From NCBI GenBank assembly GCA_036273515.1, contig DASUHM010000042.1, positions 1-38,271 of the forward strand: a stretch of 38,271 nt of DNA, given 5' to 3'. Below are positions 29,971 through 34,503 of the stretch, piece after piece; within the stretch, counting starts at the first letter, position 1; every line of letters starts with the position of its first letter. Under the pieces are notes generated by a model. It was not told where the DNA came from and made no database searches. It saw nothing but the letters and a program-made list of their open reading frames with translations. Position numbers and translations under genes: made by a program. This stretch comes from Gaiellales bacterium. GTDB taxonomy: Bacteria > Actinomycetota > Thermoleophilia > Gaiellales > JAICJC01.

Positions 29971-30290
29971 GTCCGACGAGCATCCACGCCCGACTCCACG
30001 CGCGCCCCGACGACGTGCTCGAGGTAGCGCAGCGCGACCTCCGCGTTGCCCGCATCGACGGCTGAGCAGGCGTCCGCCAGCACGGTGATCTGGTAGCCCA
30101 TCTCCCGCCTGTCGTTCGCGTAGATGACGGGCACCCCCGCCGACCGCGCCGAGGCGATCGCCGCCTCGAGGCTCGGGGCGGCCTCGCGGAACGCCGCGAA
30201 GAGCACCTCGCCGTCCGAATGCCCGAAGTCGGCGAGGACGTCCACGAGCACGAGCGCGTCGCCGTCTCTCACACACGCCAGTTTCCCCAT
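29967..30290 (-). pseudogene. internally deleted cysteine hydrolase (isochorismatase-like)
   Basis: 107-aa open frame. The first half (ALVLVDVLADFGHSDGE, SAGVPVIYANDR) is the normal N-terminus of the isochorismatase-like cysteine hydrolase family, with the catalytic Asp of VDVLADF. It joins directly to REMGYQITVLADACSAVDA and ALRYLEHVVGARV, the C-terminal end. The roughly 90-100 residues that carry the catalytic Lys and Cys are missing, yet the frame is kept. It cannot be an active hydrolase; a truncated folded product is possible. ATG 30290 has no Shine-Dalgarno; a GTG further in is an alternative. Confidence 0.7.
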
Positions 30291-30304
30291 GTCGGATCTG
30301 GGGA
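30284..30304. promoter_or_regulatory. inverted repeat at the head of the Mrp operon
   Basis: TCCCCA (30284-30289), 9 bp, TGGGGA (30299-30304) lies between the divergent hydrolase relic and mrpE. It overlaps a CATG that is an ATG on both strands. Possible operator for the antiporter operon. Confidence 0.35.
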
Positions 30305-30315
30305 ATCGACTTCTC

Positions 30316-30795
30316 GTGCGACGGGCCAACGCTGCCGCTGCATGGATCTGCTGGTGGGTCGGCTGCTTCTGGCTGTGGATGCTGCTCGTCGGCACGTGGG
30401 GCCGCACCGTCGGCGTCGCCGGCGCGATCGTCGCGATCGTGGCCGCCGCCTTGGCCGAGCGAGCCCGGCGGGCGGCCGGAGTGCATCCCCGGGTCGGGCT
30501 CGAGCCGCTGCGGAACGGCCTGACCGTCCCGCTCGTCGTCTTCGCGGATTTCGGGATCGTCATGTATGCGCTTCTGGCGTCGCTCTGGCGGCGGCGCGTC
30601 GTGCGCGGCCGCTTCATGGCCCGCGAGTTCGCCGCCGGGCCGAAGACGACGCCCGAGGGTGCCGCCCACCGGGCCTGGACGGTGCTCGTCGCCGGGTACA
30701 GCCCGAACGCGTACGTCGTCGACATCGACCCCGAGGAGGACGTCGTGCTCGTCCACGACCTGGTGCCGTGGCGCCGGTCCGAGGAGCCGGCGTGA
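30316..30795 (+). CDS. mrpE: cation antiporter subunit MrpE
   Basis: 159-aa membrane subunit E of the multi-subunit cation/proton antiporter (Mrp/Mnh). Two to three N-terminal helices (WICWWVGCFWLWMLLVG, GVAGAIVAIVAAALAER), then the soluble part with PKTTPEGAAHRAWTVLVAGYSPNAYVVDIDPEEDVVLVHDL, the hallmark MnhE end. GTG 30316 is chosen because the in-frame ATG at 30289 lies in an inverted repeat and has no ribosome site. First gene of a seven-gene run in which every junction overlaps (ATGA, GTGA or ATAG). Confidence 0.85.
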   Translation: MRRANAAAAWICWWVGCFWLWMLLVGTWGRTVGVAGAIVAIVAAALAERARRAAGVHPRVGLEPLRNGLTVPLVVFADFGIVMYALLASLWRRRVVRGRFMAREFAAGPKTTPEGAAHRAWTVLVAGYSPNAYVVDIDPEEDVVLVHDLVPWRRSEEPA

Positions 30796-31043
30796 ACGAG
30801 TTCCTGCTCGCGGCGACCGTCATGCTCGCGGGCTTCGTCCCGATCGGCATCGTCTGCCTGCGCGAGGCGCCGATCGACGCGCTCGCGGCGCTCGAGCTGG
30901 CCGGCGCGCTTGCGACGACCATCCTGCTTTGCCTGTCCGAGGGCTTCGGCCGGTCGTTCTACTTCGACGTCCCCGTCGTCTGCGCCGCCCTGACCTGGGT
31001 GAGCGGCCTCGTGTTCGCCCGGTTCCTGGGGCGGCACATATGA
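30792..31043 (+). CDS. mrpF: cation antiporter subunit MrpF
   Basis: 83-aa subunit with three hydrophobic helices. CLREAPIDALAALELAGALATTILLCL matches the conserved MrpF stretch containing its key acidic residues. GTG 30792 overlaps the mrpE stop (GTGA). Length is normal for MnhF/MbhB. Confidence 0.88.
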   Translation: MNEFLLAATVMLAGFVPIGIVCLREAPIDALAALELAGALATTILLCLSEGFGRSFYFDVPVVCAALTWVSGLVFARFLGRHI

Positions 31044-31354
31044 GCGCCCTGGCCGTCCACGTGCTGCTCGTGATCGCGGTCGTCGCGCAGCTCCTCTCGG
31101 CGCTCGGCCTCGTGGTCATGCGCACCGCCGCCGACCGGCTGCACTACACCTCCGCCGCGTTCACCGTCGGCCCGTTCTGCGTGCTCGCCGCCGTGCTGCT
31201 CCACACCGGCATGACCACCGCGGGCTACGACACGATCGCCACGGTCGGCCTGCTGTTCCTGGCCGGGCCGGTCGTCGTCCACGCGACCGCGCGCGCGGGG
31301 CGCCGGCGCGAGCTCGGCGATCCGCGACCGCGCCCCGAGGAGCGAGTCCGATAG
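31040..31354 (+). CDS. mrpG: cation antiporter subunit MrpG
   Basis: 104-aa subunit of three helices. GLVVMRTAADRLHYTSAAFTVGPFCVL is the MnhG/PhaG signature, and the tail is polar and Arg-rich. ATG 31040 overlaps the mrpF stop. Its stop TAG overlaps the proposed AUA start of the next subunit. Confidence 0.9.
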   Translation: MSALAVHVLLVIAVVAQLLSALGLVVMRTAADRLHYTSAAFTVGPFCVLAAVLLHTGMTTAGYDTIATVGLLFLAGPVVVHATARAGRRRELGDPRPRPEERVR

Positions 31355-31611
31355 TCCTCGACTCCATCGCACCGCTCCAGGCCGCGACGCTCATCCTCGT
31401 CGCCTGCGCCGCCACGGCCGTCGCGCTCTGTCTCGACCCGCTGCGCCAGATCTTCCTGAGCGGCGTCTACGGCCTCCTCCTGGTGCTGCTCTTCGTCGTG
31501 CTCCAGGCGCCTGACGTGGCGCTCTCGATGCTCGTCGTGACCACCGTCGCCTACCCGCTGATCGTCCTCATCGCGATCAGCCGCACCCGGCGGGAGGACG
31601 GGAAGGAATGA
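31351..31611 (+). CDS. DUF4040-type antiporter subunit (MbhD-like), AUA start proposed
   Basis: 86-codon frame encoding three helices: APLQAATLILVACAATAVAL, IFLSGVYGLLLVLLFVVLQ and the conserved APDVALSMLVVTTVAYPLIVL, which is the MbhD/DUF4040 module (the piece corresponding to the C-terminal part of MrpA). The frame has no ATG, GTG or TTG before the first helix. ATA at 31351 overlaps the mrpG stop (ATAG) and has GAGGAG 8 nt upstream, the same geometry as the other junctions. The end overlaps the next start (ATGA). Gene finders that need standard starts will miss it. Confidence 0.75.
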   Translation: MVLDSIAPLQAATLILVACAATAVALCLDPLRQIFLSGVYGLLLVLLFVVLQAPDVALSMLVVTTVAYPLIVLIAISRTRREDGKE

Positions 31612-32348
31612 GCTCGCGGCAGCGCCTGAGGGGACTCATCGCAGCGCCGGTGCTCGCGGTGCTCGGGGGCATCCTGCTGTGGGGACTCTCCGGCGCCCCC
31701 GCGTTCGGCGACTTCCACGGGGCCTACGGCGACCTCCTGAACCGGATCGCGGTCCCACAGCGGCACACGACGAACGTGGTGACGGCCATCGTCTTCGACT
31801 ACCGCGGGTTCGACACCATGGGCGAGGAGTTCATCCTCTTCGCGTCGGTCGTGGGCGTCGTCCTGCTCCTGCGCGACATCCGCAAGCCGGCCGGCAGCAA
31901 GGACGATGCGGTTCAGAGCGATGCCATCCGCCTCTTCGGCGTGCTCATGGTCGGCGTCGTCGTGGTCGTCGGGCTGTGGCTGGCGGCGTTCGGGCTCGTC
32001 ACGCCGGGAGGCGGGTTCCAGGGCGGCGTCGCCATCGCCGGAGGGATCGTCCTCGTCTTCCTCGCCGCCGGCTACCGGCCGTGGCGGGCGTTCGGCCGCG
32101 AGGCCCTGCTCGACCCGTTCGAGGGCGGAGGAGCCGCGAGCTACGTCGCCCTCGGCCTGGCGGCGCTGATTGCCGGGACGCCGTTCCTGCACAACCTGCT
32201 CGGGAACGGCACGACCGGCACGCTCCTCTCCGGCGGCAGCATGAGCCTCCTGAACTGGGCGGTTGCGATCGAGGTGGCGGCGGCGAATCTCGTGCTCTAC
32301 ACCGAGTTCCTCGAGAGCTACCTCGTCCCCCACCTGTCCGGGCGATGA
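31608..32348 (+). CDS. mrpB: MbhE-MnhB fusion antiporter subunit
   Basis: 246-aa membrane protein of two modules. The first ~95 residues (GDFHGAYGDLLNRIAVPQRH, TAIVFDYRGFDTMGEEFILFAS) are the MbhE-like part with the motif VFDYRGFDTMGEE. The rest is MnhB/MbhF: RLFGVLMVGVVVVVGLWLAAFGL, LVTPGGGFQGGVAIAGGIVLV. In many bacteria the first module is the end of MrpA; here it is fused to MrpB. ATG 31608 with GGAAGGA upstream and stop overlapping mrpC. Confidence 0.88.
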   Translation: MSSRQRLRGLIAAPVLAVLGGILLWGLSGAPAFGDFHGAYGDLLNRIAVPQRHTTNVVTAIVFDYRGFDTMGEEFILFASVVGVVLLLRDIRKPAGSKDDAVQSDAIRLFGVLMVGVVVVVGLWLAAFGLVTPGGGFQGGVAIAGGIVLVFLAAGYRPWRAFGREALLDPFEGGGAASYVALGLAALIAGTPFLHNLLGNGTTGTLLSGGSMSLLNWAVAIEVAAANLVLYTEFLESYLVPHLSGR

Positions 32349-32689
32349 CCTACCTCGCCTACGGAGTCGTCGCATGGGTGTTCGCGGTCGGGGTGTACGG
32401 CGCCATCGTCAGCCGCAACCTGATCCACCTCGCCCTGTGCCTGACGGTCACCCAGTCGTCGACCTACATCCTGCTGCTCACGCTCGGCTACCGCCACGGC
32501 GGGCGGGCACCGATCTTCAAGGGCGTCAAGCTCGGCACCGCGGCGGTCGACCCGGTCGTCCAGTCGCTCACGCTCACCGACGTGGTGGTCAGCGTGACCG
32601 TGATCGCGCTCATCCTGGCGCTCGCGCTCGACGTGCACCGCCAGTCCGGCAGCGTCGACCCGGACGAGATCTCGACGCTCAACGGATGA
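32345..32689 (+). CDS. mrpC: cation antiporter subunit MrpC (NuoK-like)
   Basis: 114-aa NuoK-like subunit with three helices: VVAWVFAVGVYGAIVSRNLIHLALCL, TQSSTYILLLTLGY, and VVQSLTLTDVVVSVTVIALILALAL. VDPVVQSLTLTDVVVS is diagnostic for MnhC. ATG 32345 overlaps the mrpB stop; its own stop overlaps mrpD. Confidence 0.92.
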   Translation: MTYLAYGVVAWVFAVGVYGAIVSRNLIHLALCLTVTQSSTYILLLTLGYRHGGRAPIFKGVKLGTAAVDPVVQSLTLTDVVVSVTVIALILALALDVHRQSGSVDPDEISTLNG

Positions 32690-34503
32690 GCTGGGCGCTG
32701 CCGCTCCCCGTGGCGATCCCGTTGATCGCGGCGGCCCTGCTCGTCGTGGGCGGCGAGGTGCTGCCGCGGCGCGTGTACGACGCGATCGGCATCGCCGCAG
32801 CGGCGGCCGCCACGGCCTTCGCGCTCCTGATCCTCCAGGCGTCTGAGCGGCACGACGTCCTGCACTGGTTCGGCGGCTGGCACCCGCACAACGGCATCGC
32901 CCTGGGGATCTCGTTCACGGTCGACCCGCTCGGCGCCGGGATGGCCGCGCTGGCATGCGGGCTCGACCTGCTCGCCCTCGTCTACTCGTGGACGTTCATG
33001 CGCTGGCAGTCGCAGGCGTTCGACGTCCTCATGCTCACCTTCGGCGGGGCGATGGCGGGGTTCGCGCTCACCGGCGACATCTTCAACATGTTCGTGTGGT
33101 TCGAGCTCATGGGCGTCTCCGCATACGCGCTTGCCGGCTTCATGGTCGAGGAGCTCGGGCCGCTCCAGGGGGCGATCAACTTCGCCGTCACGAACACGGT
33201 CGGCGCGTACCTGATCCTCATGGGGATCGCGCTCCTCTACGCCCGCACGGACGCGCTCAACCTGGCCCAGATCGGGCGCACGCTCGAGCGCCGGCCGGCC
33301 GACCGGCTCGTCATCGTCGCCTTCGTCCTGATCGTCACCGGGCTGATGGTCAAGGCGGCGATCGTGCCGTTCCACTTCTGGCTCGCCGACGCGCACGCGG
33401 CGTCGCCCGCGCCGGTGTGCATGCTGCTCTCGGGCGCGATGGTCGAGCTCGGGATCTTCTTCATCGCCCGCGTCTACTGGACGGTCTTCGCCGGTCCGCT
33501 CGGGGTGCACGAGGCCGGGGTGCGGGACGTGCTCGTGGGGCTCGGCGTCACGACAGCCCTGGTCGGGGCGGCGATGTGCTTCCTGCAGCGCCACCTGAAG
33601 CGGCTCCTGGCCTACTCCACGATCTCGCACGCGGGGGTGATGCTCGCCGGCGTCGCGCTGCTCGACCCGCACTCCCTCGCGGGCGTCGCCGATCTCGTGC
33701 TCGCCCACGGGCTGCTCAAGGGCGGCCTGTTCCTGATCTGCGGCATCATCCTCGTCGAGCTGCGCCACATCGACGAGCTCGAGGTGCACGGAGCGGGCCG
33801 GCGGCTGCCGGTCACGGGGGTGCTCTGGCTCGTCGGCACGGTCGGTCTCATCGGGATCCCGCCCCTCGGCGTGTTCCTGGCCCACCAGCTGCTCGACGAG
33901 GGTGGCCGCGCGCACGGATTCGGGTGGCTGGCGGCGGTCGGAGCGGTCGCGAGCGGGGTGTGCGCCGGAGCGATGCTGCGGGCGGGCGCGCGGATCTTCC
34001 TCGGCTGGGGCGCCCACGAGGACCACTTGCTCACTCCCGAACCCGACGAGGATGCGCCCGAGCGCGACGTCAGCCTGCGGCTGATGGCGACCGTCGCCGG
34101 CGTCGCGATCGTCCTCGGCCTGGTGGTCCCTCTCGTCCCCGGCCTCGAGGCCCGCACCCAGCTCGCGGCGGAGCGGTTCGCCGACACCTCGGCCTACCGT
34201 GCGGTCGTGCTGCACGGCGCGGCCCACGGCGACCGGGCGGCGCACCTGTCGTTCTCGGTGCTGAGCGTCGACACCGCGTCGGCCCTCTACGGCCTCGCCG
34301 CGCTCGCGATCGCGGCCGCGACGGCCGCGTTCGGGCTCTGGCACCGGCGGCTGCCGGGCGGCCTGCGGCGGGCCGGCGCCCGCACGCTCTGGCCTCCCGC
34401 CACGGTCGTGCGTGACGCGCACAGCGGCATCGTCGGCGACTACCTGCTCTGGCTGAGCGCGGGCGCGCTGGCGGTCGCGGCCCTCTGGGCGCTGACGCTC
34501 TAG
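32686..34503 (+). CDS. mrpD: cation antiporter subunit MrpD (NuoN/M-like)
   Basis: 605-aa proton-pumping-type subunit of about 14-15 helices, longer than the usual ~500. Key residues of the proton path are present: Glu in FVWFELMGVSAYALAG, Lys in VKAAIVPFHFWLADAHAASP, and Lys/His in RHLKRLLAYSTISHAG. The extra length lies in a C-terminal ~120 residues with a loop and one or two more helices, perhaps replacing contacts otherwise made by MrpA. It is the only NuoL/M/N-like subunit in the operon. Followed at once by a hairpin. Confidence 0.92.
   Translation: MSWALPLPVAIPLIAAALLVVGGEVLPRRVYDAIGIAAAAAATAFALLILQASERHDVLHWFGGWHPHNGIALGISFTVDPLGAGMAALACGLDLLALVYSWTFMRWQSQAFDVLMLTFGGAMAGFALTGDIFNMFVWFELMGVSAYALAGFMVEELGPLQGAINFAVTNTVGAYLILMGIALLYARTDALNLAQIGRTLERRPADRLVIVAFVLIVTGLMVKAAIVPFHFWLADAHAASPAPVCMLLSGAMVELGIFFIARVYWTVFAGPLGVHEAGVRDVLVGLGVTTALVGAAMCFLQRHLKRLLAYSTISHAGVMLAGVALLDPHSLAGVADLVLAHGLLKGGLFLICGIILVELRHIDELEVHGAGRRLPVTGVLWLVGTVGLIGIPPLGVFLAHQLLDEGGRAHGFGWLAAVGAVASGVCAGAMLRAGARIFLGWGAHEDHLLTPEPDEDAPERDVSLRLMATVAGVAIVLGLVVPLVPGLEARTQLAAERFADTSAYRAVVLHGAAHGDRAAHLSFSVLSVDTASALYGLAALAIAAATAAFGLWHRRLPGGLRRAGARTLWPPATVVRDAHSGIVGDYLLWLSAGALAVAALWALTL

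Follow-up and report, generated by a model that had tools for sequence, protein, structure and literature searches.

Start region of mbhD

The locus studied here lies in a window of 38,271 nucleotides, the whole stretch of DNA that was analysed, from a Gaiellales bacterium. It contains an antiporter subunit gene, mbhD, that lacks the usual start codons ahead of its first helix, and thereby raises the question of where the translation of this gene begins. The mbhD frame (DUF4040/MbhD) was located on the forward strand at 31351-31611, with 86 codons and a TGA stop at 31609-31611. The frame is open from 31003 up to this stop and contains no ATG, GTG or TTG between 31003 and 31483, in agreement with an earlier sequence-only reading of this DNA. 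The first such codon is a GTG at 31483, at +132 nt from the ATA at 31351-31353, and lies beyond helix 1 and also beyond the conserved DPLRQ motif of MbhD.

At the junction with the preceding gene mnhG the sequence is ...CCCCGAGGAGCGAGTCCG ATA GTC CTC GAC TCC ATC GCA CCG CTC CAG... The ATA is the sole start candidate at this junction and forms a 4-nt overlap, ATAG, with the mnhG stop TAG (31352-31354). A Shine-Dalgarno-like motif GAGGAG (31337-31342) precedes it with a spacer of 8 nt, and equivalents of this motif are present in two sister species. Both the overlap and the motif had been pointed out in the sequence-only reading, in which the upstream gene was called mrpG, and both were confirmed.

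The predicted product matched Pfam family PF13244 with an E-value of 1e-13 and a score of 51.7 bits (cut-off 27.2), covering positions 1-67 of the 67 in the profile and residues 15-81 of the protein. A profile made from six relatives matched the solved MBH subunit MbhD (6cfw_D) and the DUF4040 protein 6u8y_D, as well as the C-terminal part of MrpA (7qru_A, 6z16_A), all of which share the MbhD protein family with the gene described here. According to a codon-usage gene model derived from the genome itself, which makes no use of homology, the coding signal begins directly after the ATA.

Organisation of the operon

The mbh gene order is E-F-G-MbhD-MbhE/B-C-D, and this order was also found in the operon at 30289-34503, which corresponds to an MBH antiporter module with one large antiporter subunit. 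The first gene (30289-30795) is probably mnhE, based on gene order and coding signal, and gave no Pfam match. It is followed by mnhF (30792-31043; MrpF_PhaF, PF04066, E = 4e-8), mnhG (31040-31354; PhaG_MnhG_YufB, PF03334, E = 5e-10) and mbhD, and then by a fused mbhE-mnhB (31608-32348; PF20501 and PF04039), mnhC (32345-32689; PF00420) and an mnhD-like gene for the large antiporter subunit (32686-34503; PF00361, E = 4.5e-52), all on the forward strand. No MrpA-type N-terminal subunit was recognised adjoining the operon.

The remaining five junctions are all overlaps of 4 nt, with GTGA between mnhE and mnhF and ATGA between mnhF and mnhG, mbhD and mnhB, mnhB and mnhC, and mnhC and mnhD. The suggestion that ATAG copies an ATGA overlap in use at the other junctions holds for the 4-nt geometry, which is common to all five, but not for the letters, given the GTGA at mnhE/mnhF.

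Conservation within the genus

The genus was represented by three species, the window genome (G000) and the sisters G001 and G002, whose assemblies (L014 and L007) are separate from that of the window. All three carry ATAG at the same mbhD codon, the junctions reading GGTCCG-ATAG-CGCTCGAG in G001 and ATCGCG-ATAG-CTCTCGAG in G002. Identity to the window across the aligned operon amounts to 85% of residues for G002 and 69% for G001, and to 60% and 56%, respectively, at four-fold degenerate third positions. A sequence or assembly error masking an ATG or GTG could be suspected in a draft assembly of 98 contigs, and the earlier reading had named ATGA in relatives as the sign of such an error. As the identical codon is present in two separately assembled species with about 60% four-fold-site identity, ATAG is no sequencing error, and the probability left to this explanation is next to nil.

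The mbhD frame of G002 is without ATG, GTG or TTG from -357 to +48, and in G001 the upstream GTG codons are confined to -252 to -126, deep within mnhG. Internal GTG codons do occur, at +132 in the window genome, +48 in G002 and +36 in G001, from which a shortened MbhD might be made. Their positions are not conserved among the three species, and a start at +132 would delete helix 1 and the invariant residues D29 and R32 in this genome, which makes an internal start extremely improbable.

A side observation concerns mnhG of G002, where the codon aligned with the start (L007:3690-3701) is CTG, versus ATG in the window genome and GTG in G001. An ATG is present three codons downstream, and either a CUG start or a start shifted to this ATG may apply.

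If the AUA is used, the predicted N-terminus of MbhD is VLDSIAPLQAATL... in the window genome and ALETIAPLQ... in the sisters. Codons 2-5 after the ATA vary in the manner of coding sequence (VLDS, ALET and ALET in the three species). The dN/dS ratio of mbhD was about 0.15 against G002 and about 0.28 against G001. This purifying selection indicates that the protein is kept and nothing beyond that, such as the essential role suggested in the sequence-only reading.

The conservation of the ATA was compared with that of other codons ending in A, using 709 aligned codon columns from mnhF to mnhD in the three species. A third-position A was present in at least one species in 46 of the 709 columns and was conserved in all three in 4 of these 46, namely the ATA of mbhD together with the final codons of mnhG, mnhB and mnhC, all located at start/stop overlaps. 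The A of the last mnhG codon is that of ATAG, and those of mnhB and mnhC are the A of the mnhC and mnhD ATGA overlaps. Codons ending in A are rare in the gene calls of this genome, which has a G+C content of 72%; ATA makes up 0.44% of the Ile codons and CGA 2.4% of the Arg codons. No other third-position A was shared by all three species, and the A at this junction is thus held like the bases of a start codon. This is strong evidence from a small set of columns, in which the last A of ATA is shared with the mnhG stop and thus not independent of it.

AUC is a near-cognate start codon as well, and an in-frame ATC at 31366-31368 is the sole other near-cognate candidate near the junction. Were translation to begin there, the AUA would be merely part of the end of mnhG. 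All three species retain this ATC, and the GTG or ATG of relatives is frequently located one codon ahead of its position. Against this, the codon lies 23 nt past the Shine-Dalgarno motif and 12 nt past the mnhG stop, while coupling drops steeply with distance (PMC10666635). An AUC start would account neither for the conservation of ATA, at 0.44% of Ile codons, nor for the evolution of codons 2-5 as coding sequence, and it is considered improbable.

The mbhD frame is -1 relative to mnhG and open upstream, hence a -1 frameshift where mnhG ends could yield a MnhG-MbhD fusion. No slippery heptamer of the type X XXY YYZ was found at the frame change in CGAGTCCGATAG, CGGGTCCGATAG or GCATCGCGATAG of the three species; the heptamers CCGATAG and GCGATAG are not of this type, and the P-site tRNA would be unable to re-pair with CCG or GCG. 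Upstream of the ATA, the mbhD frame has a non-coding score (-25 across 20 codons), and in nearly all relatives the genes are separate and meet in start/stop overlaps. A frameshift is therefore very improbable. The comparative data are left unexplained by an AUC start, a frameshift and an internal GTG alike.

The junction in more distant relatives

In total, 101 distinct mbhD junctions were gathered across the order, its class and more remotely related bacteria, 98 of them outside the genus. Overlaps with a canonical start accounted for 82 (41 GTGA, 37 ATGA and 4 TTGA), all outside the genus, and ATAG for three, every one within it. The remaining junctions, leaving aside L068 and L071, have ATG, GTG or TTG at or beside the stop, for example CTGATG and CTAGTG. 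In two sister lineages (L008 and L102), the GTG of a GTGA overlap occupies the alignment column of the ATA, as seen from GTG ATG CTT GCG ACG CTC GTG CCG CTT CAG aligned with ATA GCG CTC GAG ACC ATC GCC CCG CTG CAG, which places the ATA in the homologous start-codon column. It had been proposed earlier to look for ATG or GTG at this position in close relatives; the two congeners thus have ATAG, and the GTG appears in these sister lineages.

Shine-Dalgarno strength

The energy of the duplex with the anti-Shine-Dalgarno sequence at mbhD was calculated at -7.9 kcal/mol in the window genome and at -9.1 and -8.5 kcal/mol in the sister species. For this genome, the median over 226 canonical 4-nt overlaps was -6.4 kcal/mol, and 25-33% of the canonical junctions have a Shine-Dalgarno sequence as strong as that of mbhD or stronger. 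The motif kept at mbhD in the three species is good but not exceptional. The gene after mbhD has a good Shine-Dalgarno sequence of its own (-11.6, -11.1 and -9.0 kcal/mol in the three species), and the strengths at both genes are matched among relatives that have canonical starts. An unusual Shine-Dalgarno sequence or fold was rejected as the cause, both the duplex energy and the local fold being ordinary.

Search for similar starts in the genome

A scan for 4-nt overlap geometries followed by a coding signal covered 2.11 of the genome's 4.07 Mb (52%). Canonical overlaps numbered 378, consisting of 218 GTGA, 154 ATGA and 6 TTGA. ATAG was not enriched in this part of the genome, with 9 occurrences versus 24 of CTAG, 22 of GTAG and 2 of TTAG, and the 2.11 Mb held no second case like mbhD, where the coding signal is clear and the interval from -60 to +45 nt lacks a canonical start. 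A genome-wide habit of ATA starts was rejected on these grounds, and the AUA start of mbhD would be specific to this gene.

A classic gene with weak starts is infC. It appears to begin with a conserved TTG (TTG AGG/AGA CC...), a weak canonical start, in the genus and in most of the order, with ATG in L173 (loci L173-L184). A lax initiation system signalled by infC was likewise rejected, the N-terminus having TTG or ATG and not AUA or AUU in the genus and the relatives examined.

Four CTGA overlaps with a coding signal and no ATG, GTG or TTG from -60 to +45 nt were observed in L256 (reverse strand, 14485), L213:4096, L248:15571 and L115 (reverse strand, 17519), and are candidate CUG starts. TAG represents about 36% of the stops in the gene calls (763/2143), which looks high at this G+C content and may be inflated by wrong calls.

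Proposed initiation and origin of the AUA start

Taken over the species compared, it is very probable that mbhD starts at the AUA at 31351 by termination-reinitiation at the mnhG stop, and that this start is gene-specific and ancestral to the genus. Coupling of AUA initiation to mnhG termination had been put forward in the sequence-only reading and is well supported by the comparison, with ATAG throughout the genus and in the homologous start column. We infer initiation at the AUA, the use of termination-reinitiation and Met as the residue it gives. A ribosome would end mnhG at the UAG, be kept near the junction by GAGGAG, step back by one base and, using fMet-tRNA, reinitiate on the overlapping AUA. 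The translation of mbhD would in this way stay in step with that of mnhG, in line with the 4-nt overlaps elsewhere in the operon. The weakness of AUA elsewhere counts against such a start, as a subunit present in one copy and produced at about 10% would be expected to limit the complex.

Probably, an ancestral GTGA or ATGA turned into ATAG. A return to ATG by one base would be closed, because ATGG loses the mnhG stop and the route to ATGA needs an ATAA intermediate. The persistence of ATAG could follow from this mutational trap alone. ATAG is limited to three species, all uncultured and known from metagenome-type assemblies, so that it possibly reflects a single event.

The sequence-only reading had further suggested that AUA initiation could throttle subunit stoichiometry. 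That the AUA is not merely tolerated but selected to lower the output of MbhD is possible, though doubtful. It is kept across the genus, its Shine-Dalgarno sequence is conserved as at other non-canonical starts (PMC13009471), and the good Shine-Dalgarno sequence of the following gene could decouple that gene from mbhD. On the other hand, relatives with canonical starts span the Shine-Dalgarno values seen here, and the mutational trap accounts for persistence without selection for low output.

Comparison with known systems

AUA start codons have been described in Staphylococcus aureus for infC, ccpN and citZ (Kohl et al. 2026, PMC13009471). In reporters, AUA is weaker than AUG, giving about 10% of its output in poor medium and, with ccpN in rich medium, as much as 30% (PMC13009471). 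For ccpN, the use of a non-canonical start and the Shine-Dalgarno sequence are conserved in B. subtilis also (PMC13009471). These genes resemble mbhD in having the AUA behind a Shine-Dalgarno sequence. They differ in that their start was shown experimentally and no stop/start overlap is described, whereas the mbhD start is deduced and belongs to a subunit of a membrane complex.

Coupling by 4-nt overlaps is typical of subunits of one complex (Huber et al. 2023, PMC10666635). In that survey, the -4 overlaps are ATGA or GTGA and all start codons have G in the third position (PMC10666635). The geometry at mbhD is the same and also concerns subunits of one complex, but ATAG requires a start codon ending in A. 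In MrpA, the MbhD-like region and the large subunit form one fused protein, while at mbhD the start codon alone is unusual.

No earlier report of an AUA start inside a 4-nt stop/start overlap was found in the open-access literature searched. AUA starts and 4-nt overlaps are each known; a genus-conserved AUA start within an overlap is, to our knowledge, undescribed. Since ATAG is kept in all three known species, it would be a genuine though modest departure from the AUGA/GUGA overlap rule. A wider reading, put forward tentatively, is that a selectively kept, genus-wide AUA in AUAG might set the output of one membrane-complex subunit, that ATAG/ATAA might form a third class of 4-nt overlap beside ATGA and GTGA, and that reinitiation might enable a start too weak for free initiation.

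Statements on coupled genes presume start codons ending in G, and the conserved ATAG indicates that A-ending starts can become fixed in a coupled operon. Gene finders restricted to ATG, GTG and TTG lose or truncate such genes; mbhD would keep about 42 codons. The mbhD junction would also offer a clean system for asking whether reinitiation relaxes the proofreading of the start codon.
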